Shown in pieces: positions 25,943 through 35,319 of a stretch of DNA of 64,000 nt (positions within the stretch are counted from its first letter, which is position 1; the number at the start of each line of letters is the position of its first letter). Source of the stretch: Seonamhaeicola sp. Its GTDB lineage: Bacteria; Bacteroidota; Bacteroidia; Flavobacteriales; Flavobacteriaceae. Under the pieces are notes generated by a model that ran no database searches, was not told the origin of the DNA, and was given only the letters and a program-made list of their open reading frames with translations. The translations under genes and the position numbers were made by a program. The stretch spans positions 1 to 64,000 of the forward strand of contig NZ_JANQJQ010000016.1 in assembly GCF_028281565.1 (NCBI RefSeq). The letters are read 5' to 3'.

Positions 25943-27247
25943 CTAATTTAAGGCCTCTTTATAGAAATTTAAACAACGCTCTCTGGCAAATTTATGTTCC
26001 ACAATAGGTTGGGGATAGGTTAGTTCCTGAACATCCGGGACCCATTTCTTAATATAGGTTAAGTTGTTGTCAAACTTTTGAATTTGTGTGGTGGGATTAA
26101 ATATTCTAAAATAGGGTGCTGCATCTACACCGCAACCGGCCACCCATTGCCAGTTACCAATATTGCTGGCCAACTCATAATCATGCAATTTTTCGGCAAA
26201 ATAAGCTTCGCCCCATCGCCAGTCTATTAGTAAATGCTTGCAAAGAAAACTACCTACCAACATCCTGACGCGGTTATGCATAAACCCTGTTTCGTTCAAT
26301 TGGCGCATCCCTGCATCTACCAATGGATATCCCGTTTTGCCATGGCACCAGGCCTTAAAATCGGCTTCATTGTTTCGCCATTGTATGCGATCATATTTAG
26401 GCTTGAAACAATTGTTTACAGTATGCGGAAAGTGCCATAGTATTTGCATAAAAAACTCCCGCCAGATCAATTCCTGTAAAAAGACCTCCTGCTTTTCAGC
26501 CATAGCTTTTTTAACTATGTTGCGAATACTTACGGTGCCAAAACGTAAATGAGGGCCTAACCTGGATGTAGCCTCTATGGCAGGAAAATTTCTTTTGGCT
26601 TCGTATGCTTTAATTAAGGAGGCGCTTAGCTTGTATGGTGCTATACTTTGCCTGGATTTTATAAAACCTATATCTGACAGTTTTATCGTGGGCTGTTTTT
26701 CCTGAGCTAGCAGGTTATCAAAATGTAACGACGTATTATAGCCCTTAATGTCATTGGAAGTAAATTGTGCCTTCCAGGTCTTCATATAAGGTGTGTAGAC
26801 CAAATAGGGGTTGCCATCACTTTTTACAATATCATCCTTTTCAAAAATAACGTGGTCTTTAAAGGTTTTAAATGCTATATGGTGTTCCTGTAAAAAGCCT
26901 GCAATGATTTTATCACGGTTGATACTATACGGTTCATAATCATGGTTTGTGAATACGGTATTAATACGATAGGTTTTTACTAAAGCTTTAAAGACACCTA
27001 ACGGGGTACCCTGGTAAATGGCCATATCACTTTGGTGATCGTTTTGTAAACTACCACGCATATTTTGTAGCGTCTCATAAATAAAAGTGACCCGTGCGTC
27101 ATCTTTGGGGAGTTTATCTAAGATGTCGGAATCAAAAATAAAAACAGGTAATATGGGAAGGTCACTTTTTAAGGCTTCAAAAAAGCCCCTGTTATCATCC
27201 AGTCTTAAGTCTCTTCTAAACCAAAATATATTTATGGTTGGCTTCAT
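25943..27247 (-). CDS. phr: Deoxyribodipyrimidine photolyase / cryptochrome
   Basis: A blue-light flavoprotein that splits cyclobutane pyrimidine dimers. The 434-residue length suits class I photolyases. The N-terminal antenna domain starts NIFWFRRDLRLDDNRGF. The FAD domain contains the LIWREFFMQILWHFPH segment, WCHGKTGYPLVDAGMRQLNETGFMHNRVRM and DYELASNIGNWQWVAGCGVDAAPYFRIFNP, the diagnostic FAD and DNA-binding region. A non-repair cryptochrome cannot be excluded from sequence alone. It starts 12 bp after the SRPBCC gene and ends the main leftward unit of the island. Confidence 0.93.
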   Translation of the reverse strand: MKPTINIFWFRRDLRLDDNRGFFEALKSDLPILPVFIFDSDILDKLPKDDARVTFIYETLQNMRGSLQNDHQSDMAIYQGTPLGVFKALVKTYRINTVFTNHDYEPYSINRDKIIAGFLQEHHIAFKTFKDHVIFEKDDIVKSDGNPYLVYTPYMKTWKAQFTSNDIKGYNTSLHFDNLLAQEKQPTIKLSDIGFIKSRQSIAPYKLSASLIKAYEAKRNFPAIEATSRLGPHLRFGTVSIRNIVKKAMAEKQEVFLQELIWREFFMQILWHFPHTVNNCFKPKYDRIQWRNNEADFKAWCHGKTGYPLVDAGMRQLNETGFMHNRVRMLVGSFLCKHLLIDWRWGEAYFAEKLHDYELASNIGNWQWVAGCGVDAAPYFRIFNPTTQIQKFDNNLTYIKKWVPDVQELTYPQPIVEHKFARERCLNFYKEALN

Positions 27248-27259
27248 CAGGTTTGTATT

Positions 27260-27724
27260 TTACTTGTAGATACCAAAAATCGCTTCCAGTTTTTGTGTCC
27301 TGTAACTAAAGATCTCTTCCAGCTTGGGTTTTACTAAAACAGGGTGTATCAATCTGCCTAAAAAACCTAAAGGTAATTTATAATCTACAATGTCCTCCAT
27401 TTCTATACCACCTTCAATTTCTTTTATAAAATGTTTGTGGTGCCAAAGTGCATAAGGGCCAAAGCGTTGTTCATCCACAAAATAGTGTTTATCTGTAACA
27501 TGGGTGATTTCAGTCACCCACTTGGTTTTAATACCCAAAACCGGTGTCACGATATATTGGATGATTTGTCCGGCATACATGGGTTTATCAGCACCGGAAA
27601 GTATATGAAACCCCATATACTCCGGAGTAATAGTTTTTAAATTTTCCGGATTCGATAAAAAGTTCCAGGCCGCTTCTAAAGTAATAGGCAATTTCTGTTT
27701 TCTATGTAAAGTATATATTTTCAT
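27260..27724 (-). CDS. SRPBCC family protein
   Basis: A START/Bet v1-like lipid-binding fold of about 154 residues. I start at ATG 27724 (MKIYTLHRKQKLPI), because the longer reading overlaps the tspO coding sequence and adds no family sequence. The N-terminal LPITLEAAWNFLSNPENLKTITPEYMGF and the later YALWHHKHFIKEIEGGIEMEDIVDYKLPLG are typical of the cyclase/dehydrase-like group found next to photolyase and SDR genes in many light-response clusters. The ligand is unknown. It lies between tspO and photolyase with very short gaps. Confidence 0.85.
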   Translation of the reverse strand: MKIYTLHRKQKLPITLEAAWNFLSNPENLKTITPEYMGFHILSGADKPMYAGQIIQYIVTPVLGIKTKWVTEITHVTDKHYFVDEQRFGPYALWHHKHFIKEIEGGIEMEDIVDYKLPLGFLGRLIHPVLVKPKLEEIFSYRTQKLEAIFGIYK

Positions 27725-27726
27725 AT

Positions 27727-28188
27727 TTAATTGTAATAATAAATATAGCCGTTTAACGAGGAAGCAATTAGCAGCCAAATAAAATAAGGCAAAATTAACA
27801 GGGTAAGCGGGCCTAATTTTTTCATAAACGAAAACATAAAAATGCCTATCAGAATCGTTAGCAATAGTATGACAACAAACCCTAAACCAATAAGGTGTTT
27901 ATTAAAGAACACATAGTTCCAGCTAATATTCAGAAAAAACTGGATGGAGAAAAGGGTTATGATCTTGGAGTTGGGTAGTAGCTTGAATAAGTAGGCCATA
28001 TAAATTGAAAAGCAAACCATTATGGTAAACCAGGCCATTCCAAACACCCACCCGGGTGGTGTCCAGGGAGCTTTATTAAGCCCTATGTACCAGTCTTTTT
28101 GCGGGCCATCCGCCATAAGCCAGTTCCCTATTGCCAAAGCTCCAAAGTTTATTATTAAAAATAGAATGCTATTACTAAGTAATTTCAT
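27727..28188 (-). CDS. tspO: TspO/MBR family protein
   Basis: A 153-residue, five-helix membrane protein related to the mitochondrial translocator protein. Recognisable are the Trp-rich first loop (WYIGLNKAPWTPPGWVFGMAW, about residues 32-52) and the aromatic content of helices II-V. TspO proteins bind porphyrins and can catalyse their light-dependent breakdown, and in several bacteria they act in photo-oxidative stress, which fits the neighbourhood. The start overlaps the end of the upstream 58-residue gene by 14 bp. Confidence 0.92.
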   Translation of the reverse strand: MKLLSNSILFLIINFGALAIGNWLMADGPQKDWYIGLNKAPWTPPGWVFGMAWFTIMVCFSIYMAYLFKLLPNSKIITLFSIQFFLNISWNYVFFNKHLIGLGFVVILLLTILIGIFMFSFMKKLGPLTLLILPYFIWLLIASSLNGYIYYYN

Positions 28189-28356: not shown

Positions 28357-28893
28357 TTATTTTAAATAGTTTGTGATTTTAGAACTTAACGGATCTGTGG
28401 AAGAAAAAAAGTAGTCTATCAGATTACCGTTGGTATCTACCAGATATTTTTGAAAATTCCATTTTACGGAGGAATTTTTTGTGCCGTTTTTGCTTTTTTG
28501 AGTAAGCCAGGAATATAGTGGATGCTGATGCCTGCCTTTAACATCTGTTTTCTCAGTGATCAGAAAGGTAACGCCATAATTTGTTTTACAGAAAGACGAT
28601 ATCGCCGGGGCATCGCCAGGTTCCTGACCACCAAATTGGTTGCATGGCACTCCGATTATTTGAAGCTTGTCCTGATATTGCTCATGCAACTGCTGAAGTT
28701 TCCCGTATTGTGGTGTGAATCCGCATTTCGAAGCCACATTTACGAATAACAGGTATTTCCCTTTAAATTGGGACATAGGGATTGGTTTTCCGTTAAGGGC
28801 GTTGATACTAATATCATAAAGACTTTCTGTTTGTAGTTTTGTATCTGCGGTATGGGTACCGAATACATTAAAAAGGGTCTTTAGTATATTCAT
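28357..28893 (-). CDS. Glutathione peroxidase family protein (thiol peroxidase)
   Basis: A 178-residue peroxidase with the catalytic tetrad visible: Cys57 in NVASKCGFTPQ, Gln in PCNQFGGQEPG (about residue 95), and Trp/Asn in SVKWNFQKYLVD (about residue 147). Cysteine, not selenocysteine, is used. Bacterial members usually accept electrons from thioredoxin or low-molecular-weight thiols; as this organism has bshC, bacillithiol could be the partner (inference). The N-terminal 25 residues are an unusual extension. It lies between the SDR gene (3 bp) and the small Lacal_2735-type gene. Confidence 0.92.
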   Translation of the reverse strand: MNILKTLFNVFGTHTADTKLQTESLYDISINALNGKPIPMSQFKGKYLLFVNVASKCGFTPQYGKLQQLHEQYQDKLQIIGVPCNQFGGQEPGDAPAISSFCKTNYGVTFLITEKTDVKGRHQHPLYSWLTQKSKNGTKNSSVKWNFQKYLVDTNGNLIDYFFSSTDPLSSKITNYLK

Positions 28894-28896
28894 AGT

Positions 28897-29580
28897 CTAA
28901 ATTTTAAAGGTTACAATACCACAATCCAGTTCAAAAATTTGACCAGAAATAGAAGCGGCTTTTTCTGATAATAAAAATAGGGCCATATCGGCAACTTCAT
29001 TAGGTGCAAGTATTTTTTTTAATGGATGCCTCTGTGTTATGTTGGCAACTTGTGTGTCATTTCTCAACAGTTTAGCTGCCAGGTCAGTATTTGTTACCGT
29101 AGGCGCAATAGCATTAATACGAATAGTTGGGGCCAGTTCAGCTCCAAGGGATTTTACCAGGCCCTCAACACCGGATTTAGCAACAGCTATACTGGCGTGA
29201 AATGGCATACCTAATTTAGCCGCCACAGTACTAAACAGTACTATGGAAGGCCTGTTTCCCTGCTTTAAAATGGGCAGATATTTTTGAATAACCTTGACGG
29301 CACCTAATACATTGATTTCAAAATCGTTTTTGAAGTCATCCATGCTTAACCTGGAAATTGGTTTTAGGTTGATACTGCCCGGGCAATACACTAACCCATC
29401 GGCATGATCAATATGGGGTAACGCATCGTCTGTAATATCGCAGCTGTGATGTATTAGATTAGGATGTTGTATATCCGGAGCGCTTCTGCTTATATTTATT
29501 ATTTTGAGATTAGCTACAGATTGCTCAACAATAGCCTTACCTATGCCTTTACTACCTCCAACAACAATAACGGTATTCAT
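28897..29580 (-). CDS. SDR family oxidoreductase with atypical active site
   Basis: A 227-residue Rossmann-fold protein. The nucleotide motif GGSKGIGKAI (8-17) and NxxG-like GLVYCPGS are clear, as is the C-terminal SGQIFELDCG. The catalytic YxxxK is altered: the segment HASIAVAKSGVEGL places Ile131 where Tyr is expected, four residues before Lys135. The Ser position (LFSTVAA, Ser117) is kept. It may use another residue or be mainly a binding protein. Close relatives next to photolyase genes look similar, so this is unlikely to be a sequencing error. It lies 3 bp from the peroxidase gene. Confidence 0.87.
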   Translation of the reverse strand: MNTVIVVGGSKGIGKAIVEQSVANLKIINISRSAPDIQHPNLIHHSCDITDDALPHIDHADGLVYCPGSINLKPISRLSMDDFKNDFEINVLGAVKVIQKYLPILKQGNRPSIVLFSTVAAKLGMPFHASIAVAKSGVEGLVKSLGAELAPTIRINAIAPTVTNTDLAAKLLRNDTQVANITQRHPLKKILAPNEVADMALFLLSEKAASISGQIFELDCGIVTFKI

Positions 29581-29629
29581 AATCTACAATAAACTTTATA
29601 AAATGATAGCATGTCTGACTTAATAAGTG

Positions 29630-29854
29630 CTATGCCGAGAGCAGCGGACCCTTTAAACGTTTCTCAACTTTTCTTTTTATAACAGTAAGACGTTTCATGA
29701 TATCCATGATCTTTTGGTCTTTTTTAAGCTTGTATATTTGATTTAAATCTAAAATCAGGGCTTTCGCTTCCCTGGAAATTTTTATACGATCGCTTGTCGT
29801 GAGGGATCTCATTTTTCTTTGCTCAAATTCCAGAGCTCTTTCTATTAGGTCCAT
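29630..29854 (-). CDS. Small helical protein, paralogue of 25552-25782
   Basis: A 74-residue, highly charged helical protein of unknown function, with blocks SREAKALILDLNQIYK and IMKRLTVIKRKVEKRLKG shared with its paralogue at 25552. It sits 4 bp downstream of folE, so it is co-transcribed with the stress-island genes. The duplication is an old one, since about 30% of aligned positions differ. Confidence 0.72.
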   Translation of the reverse strand: MDLIERALEFEQRKMRSLTTSDRIKISREAKALILDLNQIYKLKKDQKIMDIMKRLTVIKRKVEKRLKGPLLSA

Positions 29855-29858
29855 AATA

Positions 29859-30548
29859 TTAATTATTTATATAGTTTTGCAATTCTGTAATTTTTTCAGG
29901 CGTGTTAAATTGCCCGCCATAATATGCCGTAACGGTGGATGAGGTATCATCTTTAATACCTCTTGATGATACACAAAGATGCTTGGCATCTATAATAACC
30001 GCTATGTCTTCGGTATTTAAAACCGTTTTTAATTCTTCAGCTATTTGGTTTGTTAATCGCTCCTGAACCTGGGGACGCTTTGCATAGTATTGTACAATTC
30101 TGTTTAGTTTTGACAGTCCAATGACGCTACCGGACGATATGTAAGCTACGTGGGCTTTTCCTATAATGGGTACAAAATGGTGCTCACAATTAGAATAAAA
30201 CGTAATGTTCTTTTCAACAAGCATTTGATTGTACCGGTATTTATTATTGAACAATGCCACCTTTGGTTTGTTTTCAGGGTTTAAACCGGAAAAGATCTCA
30301 TCTATGTACATTTTGGCCACACGTTCAGGTGTGCCTTTTAAGGAGTCATCGCTGAGATCTAATCCCATGACATGCATGATTTCTTCAAATAGGATGGCAA
30401 TTCGTGCTTTCTTTTCCGTATCACTGATCTCAAAGGCATCAGACCGCAATGGTGTTTCGAGACCGGTATAGAGATGGTCATCTCCAATAGCATCAATTGT
30501 AAATCCGTTTAATGGATGCCCGTTGGTTTTTAATTTATCTAATTGCAT
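29859..30548 (-). CDS. folE: GTP cyclohydrolase I
   Basis: Converts GTP to 7,8-dihydroneopterin triphosphate, the entry to folate and other pterins. The 229-residue protein has the zinc and substrate motif SNCEHHFVPIIGKAHVAYI and the C-terminal CVSSRGIKDDTSSTVT. Its place among photolyase and SDR genes, rather than with other fol genes, suggests a second, light- or stress-induced copy supplying pterin for the photolyase antenna (5,10-methenyl-THF) or other pterin cofactors; this is inference, as the rest of the genome is not visible. Confidence 0.95.
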   Translation of the reverse strand: MQLDKLKTNGHPLNGFTIDAIGDDHLYTGLETPLRSDAFEISDTEKKARIAILFEEIMHVMGLDLSDDSLKGTPERVAKMYIDEIFSGLNPENKPKVALFNNKYRYNQMLVEKNITFYSNCEHHFVPIIGKAHVAYISSGSVIGLSKLNRIVQYYAKRPQVQERLTNQIAEELKTVLNTEDIAVIIDAKHLCVSSRGIKDDTSSTVTAYYGGQFNTPEKITELQNYINN

Positions 30549-30590: not shown

Positions 30591-31022
30591 CTATCGTATG
30601 TTGTAAAAGTCATAGCGTTCTTCGTACCTGATCTTTTCTTCTAACATTTTATCAAAAAAACGTTTATTCGCTCTGAACATGTTATTGTTTTTAAAATGAA
30701 TGAACTTACCCTGGCCATGAATACTGGTGCCCATGGTTTTAAAGACCACAAGCTGGGAGTAGGGTATGGCCCAGGTAAAATTTTGAAACCCTTTGCTTAA
30801 GAATAAAAGAATACCTTCCTTTCTTAATTCAATATTGGCGTAGTTAATACCTGAGTTTGTGTTTAAATAAGATCTTAAGTTTGGACTCACGTTATCAATA
30901 ATCATACGCTTGGAGCCTATGCCCTTCATTCTAAAGGACTCAAAGAAAGAAAATGATGAACCTACCAGATCCCTGATAATTTGTTTGTGCTTTTTGTTTT
31001 GATATGTTGTGTTTAAGATCAT
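30591..31022 (-). CDS. Conserved hypothetical protein, first gene of the photolyase unit
   Basis: A 143-residue basic cytoplasmic protein of unknown function. Aromatic-rich segments (SSFSFFESFRMKGIGSKRMII, LLFLSKGFQNFTWAIPYSQLVVF) and a charged C-terminus (FDKMLEEKIRYEERYDFYNIR) are visible, and I recognise no motif. It is the first gene behind the promoter with the 30-bp inverted repeat at 31053-31082 and lies 42 bp before folE. Confidence 0.65.
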   Translation of the reverse strand: MILNTTYQNKKHKQIIRDLVGSSFSFFESFRMKGIGSKRMIIDNVSPNLRSYLNTNSGINYANIELRKEGILLFLSKGFQNFTWAIPYSQLVVFKTMGTSIHGQGKFIHFKNNNMFRANKRFFDKMLEEKIRYEERYDFYNIR

Positions 31023-31039: not shown

Positions 31040-31082
31040 CAAATATACAAAATGTTTAATATTTATTAAAAAAAGTTAAACA
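31040..31082 (-). promoter_or_regulatory. Promoter with 30-bp inverted repeat, site B
   Basis: Leftward -7 box TATATTTG (31047-31040). Five bases upstream begins TGTTTAA-N16-TTAAACA (31053-31082), which replaces a recognisable -33 element. The same arrangement occurs at 35277-35319. Within the repeat, TTTAA-like steps recur every 10 bp. Confidence 0.65.
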
Positions 31083-31190
31083 AAAATAATCATAGTACTA
31101 TTGATAAAACTTATAGTTGGTTTTAAGATGTGTTGAGCGGGTAATAAAATGCTTTGGCCCAGATTTCCTTTTACGCCAAAAAATAGAAAT

Positions 31191-32660
31191 CTATATATGG
31201 GATATGTTCTTTGAAGTAAGCGTTGCTTTTTCTGTTTCAACTAAGGCCAGTTGTTTTATCATTCCGGAAAAGATAATCCCGTGAAAGGGGAGCACGCTAT
31301 ACCAATACAGTCTGCCCCAAAGGCCCCGAGGCCTGAAGGTGGCTGTCTGTTTAAGTTTTTTGTCTTCTATTTTAAACTCTAACCAGGCTTCTCCGGGTAA
31401 ACGCATCTCCGCGTAGAGTAGTAGTTTTTGTTTTGCTTTATCCGCAAAAATGACACGCCAAAAGTCTAGAGCGTCCCCAGCGTCCAGCTCAGTAGGACTT
31501 GTACGTCCACGCCTTAATCCTATGCCACCGAACAGTTTATCAATATACCCCCTGATGCGCCATAAGAAGTCACCGTAGTACCAGCCGTTTTTACCACCGA
31601 TGCTCCATATTTTCTCTATGGTTTGACTGGCATTGGTTATTGGATATTCCCTATGATCTTTAAAGCATCCAAATTTAGGGACATTGATGTATTTATAAAG
31701 TTTATTACGCAGCCTGCCACTACTTATTAATGAGTCTTTCCAGCTGGAAACAATGCTGTTTTGCTCAATTTTTTCGAAAGCCAATGCCACTGCTTGTTTA
31801 TAGGTAATAGGATTAACTTTGAGCAGCTTATTAATTTTACTTGGTTTCCCAATAATCTGGACACCCATACTGTCTACCAGTGAGGTGGCTAATTTGTAAG
31901 ATGTTGACGTTACAAAGTATAACCAGTAGGAAGACAGTTTTGGAGTCATCACCGGTACGGTGAGAATCCGTCTTTTGAGCCCGCGAACTTCAGCAAACTG
32001 CAGTAACATTTCCTTATATGTCATGATTTCCGGCCCGAAAACATCATAGGATTTGTTGTAAAGTTCTTCATGTCCCGCCGCTCTGGTTAAATAGGATAAA
32101 ACGTCTCGTATGGCCAGGGGTTGTGTTTTGGTATTTAACCATTTAGGAGCCACCATAACAGGGAGTTTTTCAACCAGGTCTCTTATGATCTCGAATGAAG
32201 AACTTCCCGAACCTACAATAATTCCTGCTTTAAAAATAGTTAATGCATACTGCTTTGAAGCTAAATGATATTCCACATTTTTTCTGGACTGCAGGTGTTT
32301 TGACAATACATTATCATTTGAGATCCCACTTAAGTAAATAACCTGTTTAACATGTGTGGTTTCAATAAATTTTTTGAAGTTCAGGGCACACTTTTCCTCA
32401 AGTGATTCAAAGTTTTTGGAGGAATTAGACATGGAGTGTAACAGGTAATAAGCTATATCTATGCCTTTTGGTATATTAACCAGTGTTTCCGGTTTTAGAA
32501 AATCGACCTCTATGATATAAGCTTTGTCGTCCTGGGCATAGCTTTGATCAGCTCTAAGCCTGTCTCTAACAGTACAGATAACCGTATGTCCCTGGCTTAA
32601 TAAAAGAGGGATCAACCGTTTACCGATGTAGCCTGTGGCTCCTGTAACAAGAATAGTCAT
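31191..32660 (-). CDS. NAD(P)-binding SDR/atypical epimerase with DUF2867 domain
   Basis: A 489-residue two-domain protein. Residues 1-300 form an atypical SDR (VTGATGYIGKRLIPLLLSQGH at 5-25). The C-terminal 180 residues are the DUF2867 domain (SIGGKNGWYYGDFLWRIRGYIDKLFGG, then RPRGLWGRLYWYSVLPFHGIIF). The same fusion occurs repeatedly in bacterial light-induced gene sets with photolyase and folE. The substrate is not known. Its ATG overlaps the flavin reductase stop by one base. Confidence 0.88.
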   Translation of the reverse strand: MTILVTGATGYIGKRLIPLLLSQGHTVICTVRDRLRADQSYAQDDKAYIIEVDFLKPETLVNIPKGIDIAYYLLHSMSNSSKNFESLEEKCALNFKKFIETTHVKQVIYLSGISNDNVLSKHLQSRKNVEYHLASKQYALTIFKAGIIVGSGSSSFEIIRDLVEKLPVMVAPKWLNTKTQPLAIRDVLSYLTRAAGHEELYNKSYDVFGPEIMTYKEMLLQFAEVRGLKRRILTVPVMTPKLSSYWLYFVTSTSYKLATSLVDSMGVQIIGKPSKINKLLKVNPITYKQAVALAFEKIEQNSIVSSWKDSLISSGRLRNKLYKYINVPKFGCFKDHREYPITNASQTIEKIWSIGGKNGWYYGDFLWRIRGYIDKLFGGIGLRRGRTSPTELDAGDALDFWRVIFADKAKQKLLLYAEMRLPGEAWLEFKIEDKKLKQTATFRPRGLWGRLYWYSVLPFHGIIFSGMIKQLALVETEKATLTSKNISHI

Positions 32661-33289
32661 TAGTTATAGTTTAGGGTTTTAGGTCTTTGATAACCATAGC
32701 GCATTTTAGTTTCCGGAATAACATAACCATCTAAGCCGTTTATAGCTGCTATTTCTGCTTTGGACAAGTTAATAAAGCCATCTTCCTCTATTAAATCCTC
32801 ATTTATATATAAACCGGATATTTTGCCTATGACCAAAATGGTATCGTTTGCTTTTATATGGTATTCTTCTACAAATTGCATTTCCAGTTGAATAGGGGCT
32901 CCTTCTACAAAGGGTGCTGCAAAGTGTGATTTATATTCTGCCTGCAATTCGGTTAAATCAAATTCCGATATGGACGCATCATATTTCGCAGATGTATGAT
33001 GGGCTTCTTCGGCGATACTTCTATGAATATGATTTATGGTATAGATTCCGGTTGCCTTGAGGTTTTGATAAGTGTTTCTAAGTACCGTTGTAGGGCGTAG
33101 AAAAAAACCAAGCATGGCAGGGCTGGAGCCTATATGTGTTACTGAACTGAAAACAGCCACATTTTCTACACCATCTTTTGAAATTGAACCTATCAGATTG
33201 GCCGATTTATATCCTGAACAACTATTTATTAAGTTGATTTTGTAGATATGATCCAGTTGGTTTATGTTTGACTCGCTGAAATACTTCAT
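32660..33289 (-). CDS. Flavin reductase family protein
   Basis: A 209-residue FMN-binding split-barrel protein. The NLIGSISKDGVENVAVFSSVTHIGSSPAMLGFFLRP segment is the FMN-binding N-terminal half typical of flavoredoxin/flavin reductase-like proteins. Such proteins reduce flavin with NAD(P)H or carry FMN in electron transfer. In this operon it could supply reduced flavin, but no direct evidence links it to the photolyase. It overlaps the ABC1-kinase gene by 4 bp (ATGA) and the SDR gene by one base, so the order is tightly coupled. Confidence 0.88.
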   Translation of the reverse strand: MKYFSESNINQLDHIYKINLINSCSGYKSANLIGSISKDGVENVAVFSSVTHIGSSPAMLGFFLRPTTVLRNTYQNLKATGIYTINHIHRSIAEEAHHTSAKYDASISEFDLTELQAEYKSHFAAPFVEGAPIQLEMQFVEEYHIKANDTILVIGKISGLYINEDLIEEDGFINLSKAEIAAINGLDGYVIPETKMRYGYQRPKTLNYN

Positions 33290-34599
33290 GACAATTTTAA
33301 ATAGTTATTTATTCTGATATTTTGTGCTTTTAAGTCAAACAATAAATTGTAAAGCCCAAAAAAGGTTCTGTTGATGTAAATGAAATGCTTTGAACCTCTG
33401 TTGCCATTCATTTTTTTTAGATCTGTACTCTTTGCATACTGTTCGCCTAATGCTGAAATTTTGCCAAAAAAATCAGAATCTGAAAAATCAAAAATGTCTT
33501 GATTGAATGGTTGTGTGAAAAGACTTAGCATTTCATGAAACATATTGGTAAAGAAAACAAGCTCTTCTTCAGTATCATCTTCACGTAAAATTTCCAATTC
33601 ATATAATTTGGTTTTAAAGATTTTTCTGTTGTTGATGTTTCCCTTTTTGGCTAATTCAAAGTAGGGTTTATAAAATTGATCAGGAAGAGATTTTATACAC
33701 CCAAAGTCTAAGACTATTAATTTTCCTTTTTCAGATATTAAAAAGTTTCCGGGATGTGGATCTGCATGAACCTTTTTTAATGTATGAATTTGGAACATGT
33801 AAAAGTCCCAAAGCGCCTGCCCCAGTTTATTTGATTTCTCCTGACTGATATTATGAGCTGTAAATTCTGAAAGATGTTCACCTTGCATGTAATCCATGGT
33901 AATAATTCGCTCAGAAGAATAATTTTCATAGTAATTGGGAAATTCCAGATTTGTAATGTGAGAACATGACAAAGCTATTTCTTTACTTTGTTTTAATTCC
34001 AAAATATAATTGGTTTCCTCTATTAACTTATCTTCAACTTCCTTAAAGTATTTGTCAGAATCATTCCCTTTTATATTGAACATACTCATAGCTACAGGTT
34101 TTACCATAGCTAAATCTGAAGTAATACTTTCTGCAACTCCGGGATATTGAATTTTCACAGCAAGCTTTTTCCCGTTCTTGGTTGCAATATGCACCTGACC
34201 GATGCTGGCAGCATTAACAGAAGTTGCATTAAAAGTATCGAATAATTCATTTGGGTGCTTTCCAAAGTATTTTTTAAATGTTTTAATGACTAGAGGCGGT
34301 GATAATGGTGGTACAGAAAACTGTGCTAATGAAAATTTTTCAACGTATGCCTGAGGTAGAATGCTTTTTTCCATACTTAGCATTTGAGCTACTTTAAGGG
34401 CGCTACCTTTTAATTGCTTTAGGCCGTCATAAATATCAGAAGCGTTATTTTTATTGAGTCTGTCTTTAGCTTCATCTTGATTATTCAATAGCTTATCACC
34501 ATAATACTTCAGATAGTTTACACCAACTTTTGCTCCGGTTGAAACTAACTTGGTAGCACGTTGAATTTTTGAAGTTGGTATTTTATCGATGGTTTTCAT
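33286..34599 (-). CDS. ABC1/AarF/UbiB atypical kinase
   Basis: A 437-residue protein of the UbiB-like family, ATPases or kinases tied to quinone and lipid metabolism. Family features are the KxGQ-like LKVAQMLS (about residues 64-71), the Ala-rich loop NAASIGQVH (about 129-137), the lysine in LAVKIQYPG, and catalytic HADPHPGNFL and VLDFGC. No C-terminal transmembrane hairpin is evident. Relatives are found next to photolyase and SDR genes in several lineages. It lies 3 bp downstream of the TetR gene, overlapping the flavin reductase gene. Confidence 0.9.
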   Translation of the reverse strand: MKTIDKIPTSKIQRATKLVSTGAKVGVNYLKYYGDKLLNNQDEAKDRLNKNNASDIYDGLKQLKGSALKVAQMLSMEKSILPQAYVEKFSLAQFSVPPLSPPLVIKTFKKYFGKHPNELFDTFNATSVNAASIGQVHIATKNGKKLAVKIQYPGVAESITSDLAMVKPVAMSMFNIKGNDSDKYFKEVEDKLIEETNYILELKQSKEIALSCSHITNLEFPNYYENYSSERIITMDYMQGEHLSEFTAHNISQEKSNKLGQALWDFYMFQIHTLKKVHADPHPGNFLISEKGKLIVLDFGCIKSLPDQFYKPYFELAKKGNINNRKIFKTKLYELEILREDDTEEELVFFTNMFHEMLSLFTQPFNQDIFDFSDSDFFGKISALGEQYAKSTDLKKMNGNRGSKHFIYINRTFFGLYNLLFDLKAQNIRINNYLKLS

Positions 34600-34602
34600 A
34601 TG

Positions 34603-35259
34603 CTAATTCATTTGAAACTTTTCTTTGAACAAAAACTTACCCAAGTCTAACACACTCTTTATTGGAGCAATGTCCAGAACATCAAATGTGGTGTTGACAG
34701 ACTTTTCAATGAAAATATCCGTTTTTTCAAAAGAAGCAGATATGTCCTCCAGCCAGAATTTCACGGTAAGCATAAGCTGTAACCAGGCAGATTCTTTCAG
34801 AGCATTTTTTTGAAGCTTTTCAAACCGTTCTTGTTTTATATCTAACATTTGGATACCTAAACCATTTATATAGTTTGTAAAATGCTTTTTTAAACCGGAA
34901 AGCGTTTTTAGCCCTTTGAGGTCTGCCTTATTTTTATATAAGGTATACTTCACATAACTTCTGTTTGCTGTTAAATTTTCAAAGAATGTATAATAAAAGC
35001 TTAAAAGTTTATTTCTGGCATCAAAAGTTTTATAGTCTTCACTTTTACTAAGAACATTGATAGCATTTGTAAAAAATGTTTCAAAAATCCCTTTTTCAAT
35101 GGCATGAAAAGAAGCAAAATATTCATAGAATATGGCTTCTTCAAAATTATTCAGCTTAGCAAAGGAAAATACCGTCTTTGGATGATCATTATGCTCCAAG
35201 ACATAATCCATGTACCAGGTCATTATATCATGCTTTGAAACCGCCTTTCTCTTTTCCAT
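34603..35259 (-). CDS. TetR-like transcriptional regulator
   Basis: A 218-residue, all-helical protein starting MEKRKAVSKHDIMTWYMDYV. The N-terminal helix-turn-helix is divergent (KTVFSFAKLNNFEEAIFYEYFAS, about residues 27-49), and the C-terminal domain matches the TetR-type ligand part only loosely. As first gene of the operon behind the 30-bp inverted repeat it may control its own operon and the neighbouring one, but the region could equally be targeted by a light-sensing MerR-type regulator encoded elsewhere. A structural test of the fold would settle its class. Confidence 0.7.
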   Translation of the reverse strand: MEKRKAVSKHDIMTWYMDYVLEHNDHPKTVFSFAKLNNFEEAIFYEYFASFHAIEKGIFETFFTNAINVLSKSEDYKTFDARNKLLSFYYTFFENLTANRSYVKYTLYKNKADLKGLKTLSGLKKHFTNYINGLGIQMLDIKQERFEKLQKNALKESAWLQLMLTVKFWLEDISASFEKTDIFIEKSVNTTFDVLDIAPIKSVLDLGKFLFKEKFQMN

Positions 35260-35276
35260 AATTGTATTGTTTATGG

Positions 35277-35319
35277 TAAAGATATAAAATGTTTAACAAA
35301 TTTTAAAATAAGTTAAACA
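35277..35319 (-). promoter_or_regulatory. Promoter with 30-bp inverted repeat, site A
   Basis: Near-consensus leftward -7 box TATCTTTA (35284-35277), then 5 bases, then TGTTTAA-N16-TTAAACA (35290-35319). Spacing and outer arms are identical to site B upstream of 31022. It drives the TetR-ABC1 kinase-flavin reductase-SDR operon. Confidence 0.62.

Follow-up and report, generated by a model that had tools for sequence, protein, structure and literature searches.

The two 30-bp inverted repeats TGTTTAA-N16-TTAAACA that head two operons in a 64,000-nucleotide stretch of Seonamhaeicola sp. (contig NZ_JANQJQ010000016.1, the whole stretch being referred to below as the window) are likely to be operators of a Bacteroidota MerR protein of the CarH/LitR type, which probably acts as a dark repressor that is released by light. 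Operator 1 (31053..31082, minus strand) ends 30 bp ahead of the start codon of the 30591 gene, which opens operon 1, and operator 2 (35290..35319, minus strand) likewise ends 30 bp ahead of the start codon of the 34603 gene, which encodes a TetR-like protein and opens operon 2. An earlier sequence-only reading had described the two repeats as identical and identically spaced. Both are indeed exact copies of the motif, and at both of them 5 bp separate the repeat from a downstream -7 box, TATATTTG (TAnnTTTG; 31047-31040, minus strand) and TATCTTTA (final base off consensus; 35284-35277, minus strand), respectively, whose position is kept in orthologues. The claim that one regulator serves both operons is supported by the results below. 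The claim that TTTAA-like steps recur every 10 bp inside the repeat did not hold, since the interior of 23 sites keeps only a trend from T-rich to A-rich.

If AT-rich intergenic DNA simply yielded pairs of TGTTTAA and TTAAACA, the two window copies would be a coincidence, and the count in the window agrees with that idea: a scan allowing up to two mismatches found 2 sites against 1.73 expected by shuffling, both of the finds being exact. Across the 5.27-Mb genome, however, the exact motif occurs 8 times and the reversed pattern not once. With one mismatch allowed, the counts become 16 and 5, and 1-mismatch sites are therefore individually weak. Six such sites in this genome (one inside a coding sequence, one overlapping a coding end, and four near the starts of non-target genes) were treated as chance matches, since the reversed pattern gives 5 at the same stringency. 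Because the reversed pattern differs from the motif in its dinucleotides, varying the gap provides the fairer control. Over all gaps from 6 to 26, the genome holds 11 copies, 8 of them N16, against 4 reversed; a search of 30 genomes over gaps 10-22 gave tables that sum to 113 forward places against 47 reversed, and among the matches listed there, 53 of 75 forward places are N16 while 22 are scattered over the other gaps. Relatives contain 108 places against 4 reversed, and in a sample of the class the motif occurs in 61 of 119 genomes (own genome included), with 99 places against 9 reversed when the own genome is left out. Altogether, the excess of exact copies, the N16 preference, the constant distance to the -7 box, and the conserved targets described below bear out the earlier argument against chance; conservation refutes a chance origin, to which we assign practically no probability.

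The candidate regulator is encoded outside the window. A profile scan of the genome gave two MerR_1 matches, one of which belongs to a gene (G000:C30:378862-379830) directly upstream of crtIBZY, and one of the six exact copies outside the window lies between this MerR gene and crtI-crtB-crtZ-crtY. Further exact copies precede a crtW-like gene, a mevalonate-kinase-like gene followed by a UbiA-family gene, a gene for a 1141-amino-acid secreted protein tagged for the type IX secretion system (T9SS; two tandem copies), and a GLPGLI gene, and a tandem pair of 1-mismatch sites precedes a gene for a lipoprotein-like protein with several fasciclin domains. CrtI scores above its NCBIfam cut-off, while the CrtW and mevalonate kinase matches fall below theirs; crtB, crtZ, and crtY were named from Pfam SQS_PSY, FA_hydroxylase, and Lycopene_cyc, respectively. 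For the large T9SS-tagged protein, we observed conserved and sometimes tandem operators before the start codon (L012:8021-8092; relatives L080, L094, and L134). A B12-dependent MerR of the LitR/CarH type was one of two regulators put forward by the sequence-only reading. This candidate gained ground, as its gene adjoins the repeat before crtI and the conserved targets are largely photoprotective, and we regard the MerR protein as a well-supported regulator of the repeat.

The other candidate was the TetR-like protein itself, which, as a common regulator, would repress both its own operon and the folE operon. It has a site in its own promoter. The two candidates were compared by co-occurrence across 58 relatives (own genome excluded), with presence or absence and site numbers entered by hand into the script and with Fisher tests that ignore phylogeny. 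The motif is present in 32 of 41 relatives with the MerR against 1 of 17 without it (3.5e-7), and in 24 of 28 relatives with the TetR against 9 of 30 without it (2e-5). Among the genomes that encode just one of the two proteins, the motif is found in 8 of 15 MerR-only genomes (five copies in G025) and in 0 of 2 TetR-only genomes, and the TetR is absent from 9 of the 33 motif-bearing relatives. The repeat thus tracks the MerR better than the TetR. In addition, only the C-terminal TetR domain is recognized by Pfam. The TetR-like protein was rejected as the common regulator on the basis of co-occurrence, and we consider this role very improbable.

We then examined which genes follow the motif in relatives, using 70 sites in 60 fetched regions drawn from the matches listed. 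This set excludes genomes with no sites listed (G001, G007, G012, G015, G027, G037, G038, G041, and G054) and five listed sites (G009:C54, G021:C319, G014:C37, and two in G016), and it includes 2 of the 9 sites of G002. The labels for fasciclin, extracytoplasmic function (ECF) sigma factors, and the 1141-residue T9SS protein were added after the loci had been seen, and GLPGLI stayed outside the label set (L082 counts as unlabelled). The first gene is a homologue of the target set at 63 of the 70 sites: fasciclin (19), TetR (13), crtI (8), the 30591 homologue (8), the T9SS protein (4), a mevalonate-kinase-like gene (3), crtW (2), DUF2867 (2), and ECF, short-chain dehydrogenase (SDR), phr, SRPBCC, and MerR genes (one each). 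The repeat precedes carotenoid, photolyase, and other photoprotection genes in many relatives, a pattern that the sequence-only reading had proposed to look for, and the motif recurs at the promoters of the same two operons, where its absence from relatives had been named as evidence to the contrary, at 21 relatives' sites. When 20 site-neighboring proteins were scanned, 16 matched PF02469, and the other four were an ALO/FAD oxidase, a TetR_N-like protein, a MORN-like protein, and one protein with no match. Fasciclin genes directly follow the operator more often than any other kind of gene in these fetched regions (L153:2720-5005; 16 genes in L076-L129), and a role of their products in photoprotection of the envelope is possible.

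A second set of 80 named loci was retrieved by the MerR alone. In 79 of these, the first labelled gene to follow the MerR gene is crtI, and a site with at most two mismatches lies between the two genes in 28, of which 24 have TAnnTTTG at +16. At 0-1 mismatch, there are 27 sites between MerR and crtI against 4 in the other 970 kb of the loci; at exactly two mismatches, there is 1 against 87, and only the better matches are therefore informative here. When the gap was left free at up to one mismatch, N16 was found in 27 named loci and N17 in 5, the latter being crtI operators of three Flavobacterium, one Leptobacterium, and one Flavobacteriia record (L185, L208, L209, L213, and L218). In many loci that lack the site, crtI nearly abuts the MerR stop codon. 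One record titled as a Klebsiella pneumoniae metagenome-assembled genome (L239) contains a MerR-crtI locus of flavobacterial type, the operator of which has two mismatches, and is apparently a mislabelled bin.

At the level of the class, we took all listed places outside the own family, namely 53 regions with 62 sites; six listed places in two same-family genomes were left out. Labels could be given to 43 of the 62 sites, some of which face two genes: ECF sigma (23), MerR (5), folE (4), fasciclin (4), SRPBCC (4), crtI (2), crtZ (2), and phr, TetR, and T9SS (one each). The family MerR is encoded in 20 of the 53 regions, with Wx9EH in all 20 and E-x-H-E in 19 of these proteins. The 23 ECF sites fall in 19 regions, in 13 of which crt, phr, or folE homologues follow, and the eight ECF proteins that were checked contain sigma-70 regions 2 and 4. 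The order operator, ECF sigma gene, and crt, photolyase, or folE gene was observed in L075, L242, L244, L259, L260, L262, L269, L271, L272, L275, L276, L286, L291, and L293, and the stretch that was fetched often includes the MerR gene as well. A cascade from MerR to ECF sigma factor is likely in these loci, and the window's family seems to be without such a cascade at crt. Many genomes of the class thus seem to place an ECF sigma gene under this operator, while in the window's family the target promoters carry it themselves.

The position of the repeat relative to the -7 box falls into two settings. At the sites before the TetR and 30591-folE operons (21 from relatives and the 2 in the window), TAnnTTT lies at exactly +36, that is, 5 bp past the repeat, in 21 of 23 cases, while the best single position in 2000 flank shuffles reached 3. 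The center of the site then lies some 20 bp ahead of the -7 box, at the expected -33 element. At crtI sites, TAnnTTTG lies at +16 in 8 of 9 cases, so that the repeat covers the -7 box, and the same holds for 5 of 21 fasciclin sites. The two settings are exactly 20 bp apart. The -33 element does appear to be missing, as the sequence-only reading had stated, with TTG at a 17-23 bp spacer in just 4 of 21 window-type promoters (12% per promoter by shuffling). Yet this does not single out the window promoters, because the crtI promoters lack TTG as well (1 of 8 has it). The accompanying proposal that the repeat takes the place of the missing -33 element is only partly supported: it fits both window promoters, but at crtI the overlap with the -7 box points to occlusion of RNA polymerase rather than to a stand-in for -33.

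Other arrangements were observed around these promoters. Among 43 class-level sites (L241-L293), TAnnTTTG occurs at -5, reaching into the first arm, in 9, which could be a third promoter arrangement or a by-product of the T-rich flank. Upstream of the MerR gene, in many named loci and in the own genome, inspection by eye found a -7 box fused to a half-site (TAnnTTTG-TTTAA), a sequence that suggests MerR autoregulation. Extra upstream half-sites, likewise read by eye, are present at some promoters only. In L011, L099, and L101, where the -7 box is at +16, the expected transcript start lies approximately 0-10 nt from the crtI start codon, and the crtI mRNA may be leaderless or nearly so.

The MerR protein combines a winged-helix domain of the MerR type (PF13411, MerR_1, at 51.1 bits against a cut-off of 21.6) with a C-terminal half of the cobalamin-binding type, indicated by a PF02607 (B12-binding_2) match above cut-off, and a phmmer search of the PDB matched it to CarH. 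For an AlphaFold model of a relative (pLDDT 86), the top structure matches were to Thermus thermophilus CarH (E 2.7e-14), with the cobalamin domain, a helical cap joined to a Rossmann fold, aligning at TMt up to 0.85. The residues that contact adenosylcobalamin (AdoCbl), namely W131, E141, H142, and H177 of the Wx9EH and ExH motifs, whose roles are described in PMC11796333, are invariant in 27 of 27 aligned relatives; in a separate alignment of 32 sequences, one has ER in place of EH and one is without the ExH histidine. A cobalamin adenosyltransferase gene is present in the genome. MliR of Bizionia was ruled out as the same protein, being described as devoid of an effector domain (PMC9478572).

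Starting from features that can be read from sequence, namely the site with its spacing and its fixed distance to the -7 box, the set of target genes, the MerR co-occurrence, and the CarH-like fold, we infer binding by the MerR, a B12 cofactor, a response to light, and repression. In the proposed mechanism, a MerR dimer, or one face of a tetramer, would read the TGTTTAA and TTAAACA arms. In the dark, the protein, probably bound to AdoCbl, would sit on the promoter and keep RNA polymerase off, with the site centered on the -33 region at the window operons and, at crtI, over the -7 box, a downstream shift of 20 bp or roughly two turns of the helix. Cleavage of the Co-C bond by light would release the MerR and thereby induce carotenoid synthesis, photolyase, folE, the fasciclin proteins of the envelope, and the redox and flavin genes. 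Repression is preferred because a single protein bound to one face of the DNA would be able to block RNA polymerase in either setting. The link to light is drawn by analogy, since the targets match sets induced by light or singlet oxygen elsewhere: phrB, folE, and an SDR gene belong to the LitR regulons reported for Pseudomonas (PMC9758184), Rhodobacter RpoE is reported to control photolyase, folE2, and fasciclin genes (PMC7074977), and the set reported for Mycobacterium kansasii after exposure to light includes phrB, tspO, and two fasciclin genes (PMC9861118).

Several observations weigh against this reading. The MerR misses the PF02310 cut-off (13.6 bits against 32.1), and its score for the NCBIfam CarH equivalog NF052513 (70.6 bits against a cut-off of 400) marks it as a homologue rather than an equivalog. 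Superposition of the full chain on CarH is poor (TMq ~0.57, rmsd ~12), the two halves fitting separately, and the bis-His ligand of the light state, H132 in T. thermophilus, is replaced by a nearly invariant Gln, although variation at this position has been reported among other cobalamin photoreceptors (PMC11796333). CarH operators are described as tandem 11-bp direct repeats nnnnTnnACAn (PMC8156234, PMC9304148), in contrast to the 30-bp inverted repeat found here; the arm starts are 23 bp apart and inverted, and each arm (TAAACA) fits the CarH TnnACA. An exact site is missing from nine of the 41 genomes with the MerR, and the MerR proteins of these nine are 33-50% identical to the query. As for the targets, 7 of the 70 relatives' sites have no labelled first gene, one of these genes being a GLPGLI gene, and 19 of the 62 class-wide sites are unlabelled, some of them inside coding sequence and probably due to chance. 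The distances to the -7 box hold in the own family only, as +16 was found in 4 and +36 in fewer than 3 of the 43 class-level sites. Finally, LitR of Streptomyces is reported to promote transcription of litS when light is present (PMC12705666), and the polarity could therefore be the reverse.

Two alternatives keep the MerR protein and change the way in which it works. If the polarity is indeed reversed, the same MerR would be a light-state activator at the window promoters, recruiting RNA polymerase where the -33 element is absent. The low frequency of TTG (4 of 21), the centering of the site near -33, and the Streptomyces precedent agree with this. Nevertheless, a bound activator should block transcription at the crtI (8 of 9) and fasciclin (5 of 21) promoters, where the site covers the -7 box; the absence of TTG extends to crtI promoters; and both CarH and PmlR2 are reported to be repressors (PMC8156234, PMC9758184). 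We therefore regard activation as unlikely. To a similar degree, we doubt that the protein is a B12-independent repressor resembling CarA, in which the B12 fold is kept while a partner protein or another signal exerts control. Myxococcus xanthus CarA is reported to retain a B12-binding motif that it does not need and to use an operator with inverted repeats (PMC8156234, PMC9304148), and both the Gln in place of H132 and the sub-threshold PF02310 score would suit such a protein. On the other hand, the four AdoCbl-contact residues are invariant in the 27 aligned relatives, although, as CarA illustrates, a kept motif is no proof, and the genome encodes a cobalamin adenosyltransferase. A B12-binding MerR that represses in the dark remains the reading that we prefer.

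Compared with known systems, the MerR shares with CarH of T. thermophilus, Bacillus megaterium, and myxobacteria the DNA-binding and cobalamin-binding halves, the Wx9EH and E-x-H motifs, a gene that adjoins crt genes, and an operator that overlaps promoter elements (PMC8156234, PMC9304148), while it differs in the residue at the H132 position and in its wider regulon. CarA has a related fold and an operator with inverted repeats over a crt promoter (PMC9304148, PMC8156234), and is itself B12-independent and controlled by CarS. The class II LitR proteins of Pseudomonas (PplR1-3, PmlR1/2) have a regulon with phrB, folE, and SDR genes and an operator over -35; that operator is described as T(G/A)TACA-N12-TGTA(C/T)A, which differs from the present one in both arms and gap, and these proteins keep only the helical part of the B12 domain, with PmlR2 working together with a LOV protein (PMC9758184). 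In Streptomyces, LitR is a MerR light regulator that acts on LitS, a dedicated sigma factor driving crt (PMC12705666), which resembles the class-level operators before ECF genes, whereas in the window's family the operator is directly on crtI. The RpoE-ChrR system of Rhodobacter sphaeroides includes photolyase, folE2, SDR, and the fasciclin gene RSP_1409 among its targets (PMC7074977), but it is a sigma/anti-sigma pair instead of a MerR with an operator. Within flavobacteria, a MerR gene heads the crt cluster of Nonlabens spongiae, reported as annotation only (PMC11855829). In Chryseobacterium lacus, carotenoid synthesis is light-induced by a mechanism that is called unknown in PMC7064467, where a LitR-like gene near crtB is offered as a guess. 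Since the CarH model score, H132, and both described operator types fail to match, the protein appears to represent a distinct branch of the family rather than CarH itself.

The genes of the two window operons all lie on the minus strand. Operon 1 begins with the 30591 gene (30591..31022), whose 143-amino-acid product has no Pfam family above cut-off and which occupies the same place in relatives, followed by folE for GTP cyclohydrolase I (29859..30548), an SDR gene (28897..29580), and genes for a glutathione peroxidase family protein (GPx; 28357..28893), a TspO/MBR family protein (27727..28188), an SRPBCC/polyketide-cyclase-like protein (27260..27778; Pfam match below cut-off, likely start ATG at 27724), and, last, a DNA photolyase/cryptochrome family protein (25943..27247). 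Its status as a single unit is only inferred because gaps of 278 bp (29581-29858, between the SDR and folE genes) and 168 bp (between the TspO and GPx genes) interrupt it. The first of these gaps contains a 74-amino-acid frame, and several relatives have a frame of 84-102 amino acids between the 30591 homologue and folE. Operon 2 begins with the TetR-like gene (34603..35259; TetR_C_23, no TetR_N match), which we regard as a target and not as the common regulator, and continues with genes for an ABC1 kinase-like protein (33286..34599), a flavin-reductase-like protein (32660..33289), and, last, an NAD(P)-binding and DUF2867 protein (31191..32660).

A bolder idea, to which we give a rather low probability, is that the fasciclin (FAS1) lipoproteins of the envelope serve as sunscreens that bind carotenoids and are induced by light, much as a bacterial version of AstaP from algae would, and that they are made together with carotenoids, including ketocarotenoids of the crtW type. 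They would then belong to a B12-photoreceptor regulon spanning the class Bacteroidia, in which one inverted-repeat CarH operator would act from two positions on one face of the DNA, separated by 20 bp. A special likeness to AstaP by sequence was not borne out, the best PDB matches of the fasciclin proteins being TGFBI and periostin, with AstaP (8c18) at 5.6e-11. A cyanobacterial fasciclin homologue is reported not to have bound carotenoid (PMC10147662).

By sequence and fold, the regulator is a relative of CarH and LitR, and what sets it apart is the inverted-repeat operator and the presence of fasciclin lipoproteins in the regulon; a literature search, with most subscription journals outside its coverage, found no description of this operator in Bacteroidota. 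An operator, a candidate photoreceptor, and a list of targets together make the question of light-regulated carotenoid synthesis in Bacteroidota directly testable, and in bacteria that are easy to grow. In a major class of bacteria, the proposed switch would connect genes for carotenoids, pterins, photolyase, isoprenoids, and fasciclins, and it is a candidate tool for optogenetics in Bacteroidota. Moreover, the results suggest drift in DNA recognition within the CarH family, between inverted and direct repeats, between overlap with -33 and with -7, and between direct and ECF-mediated control.

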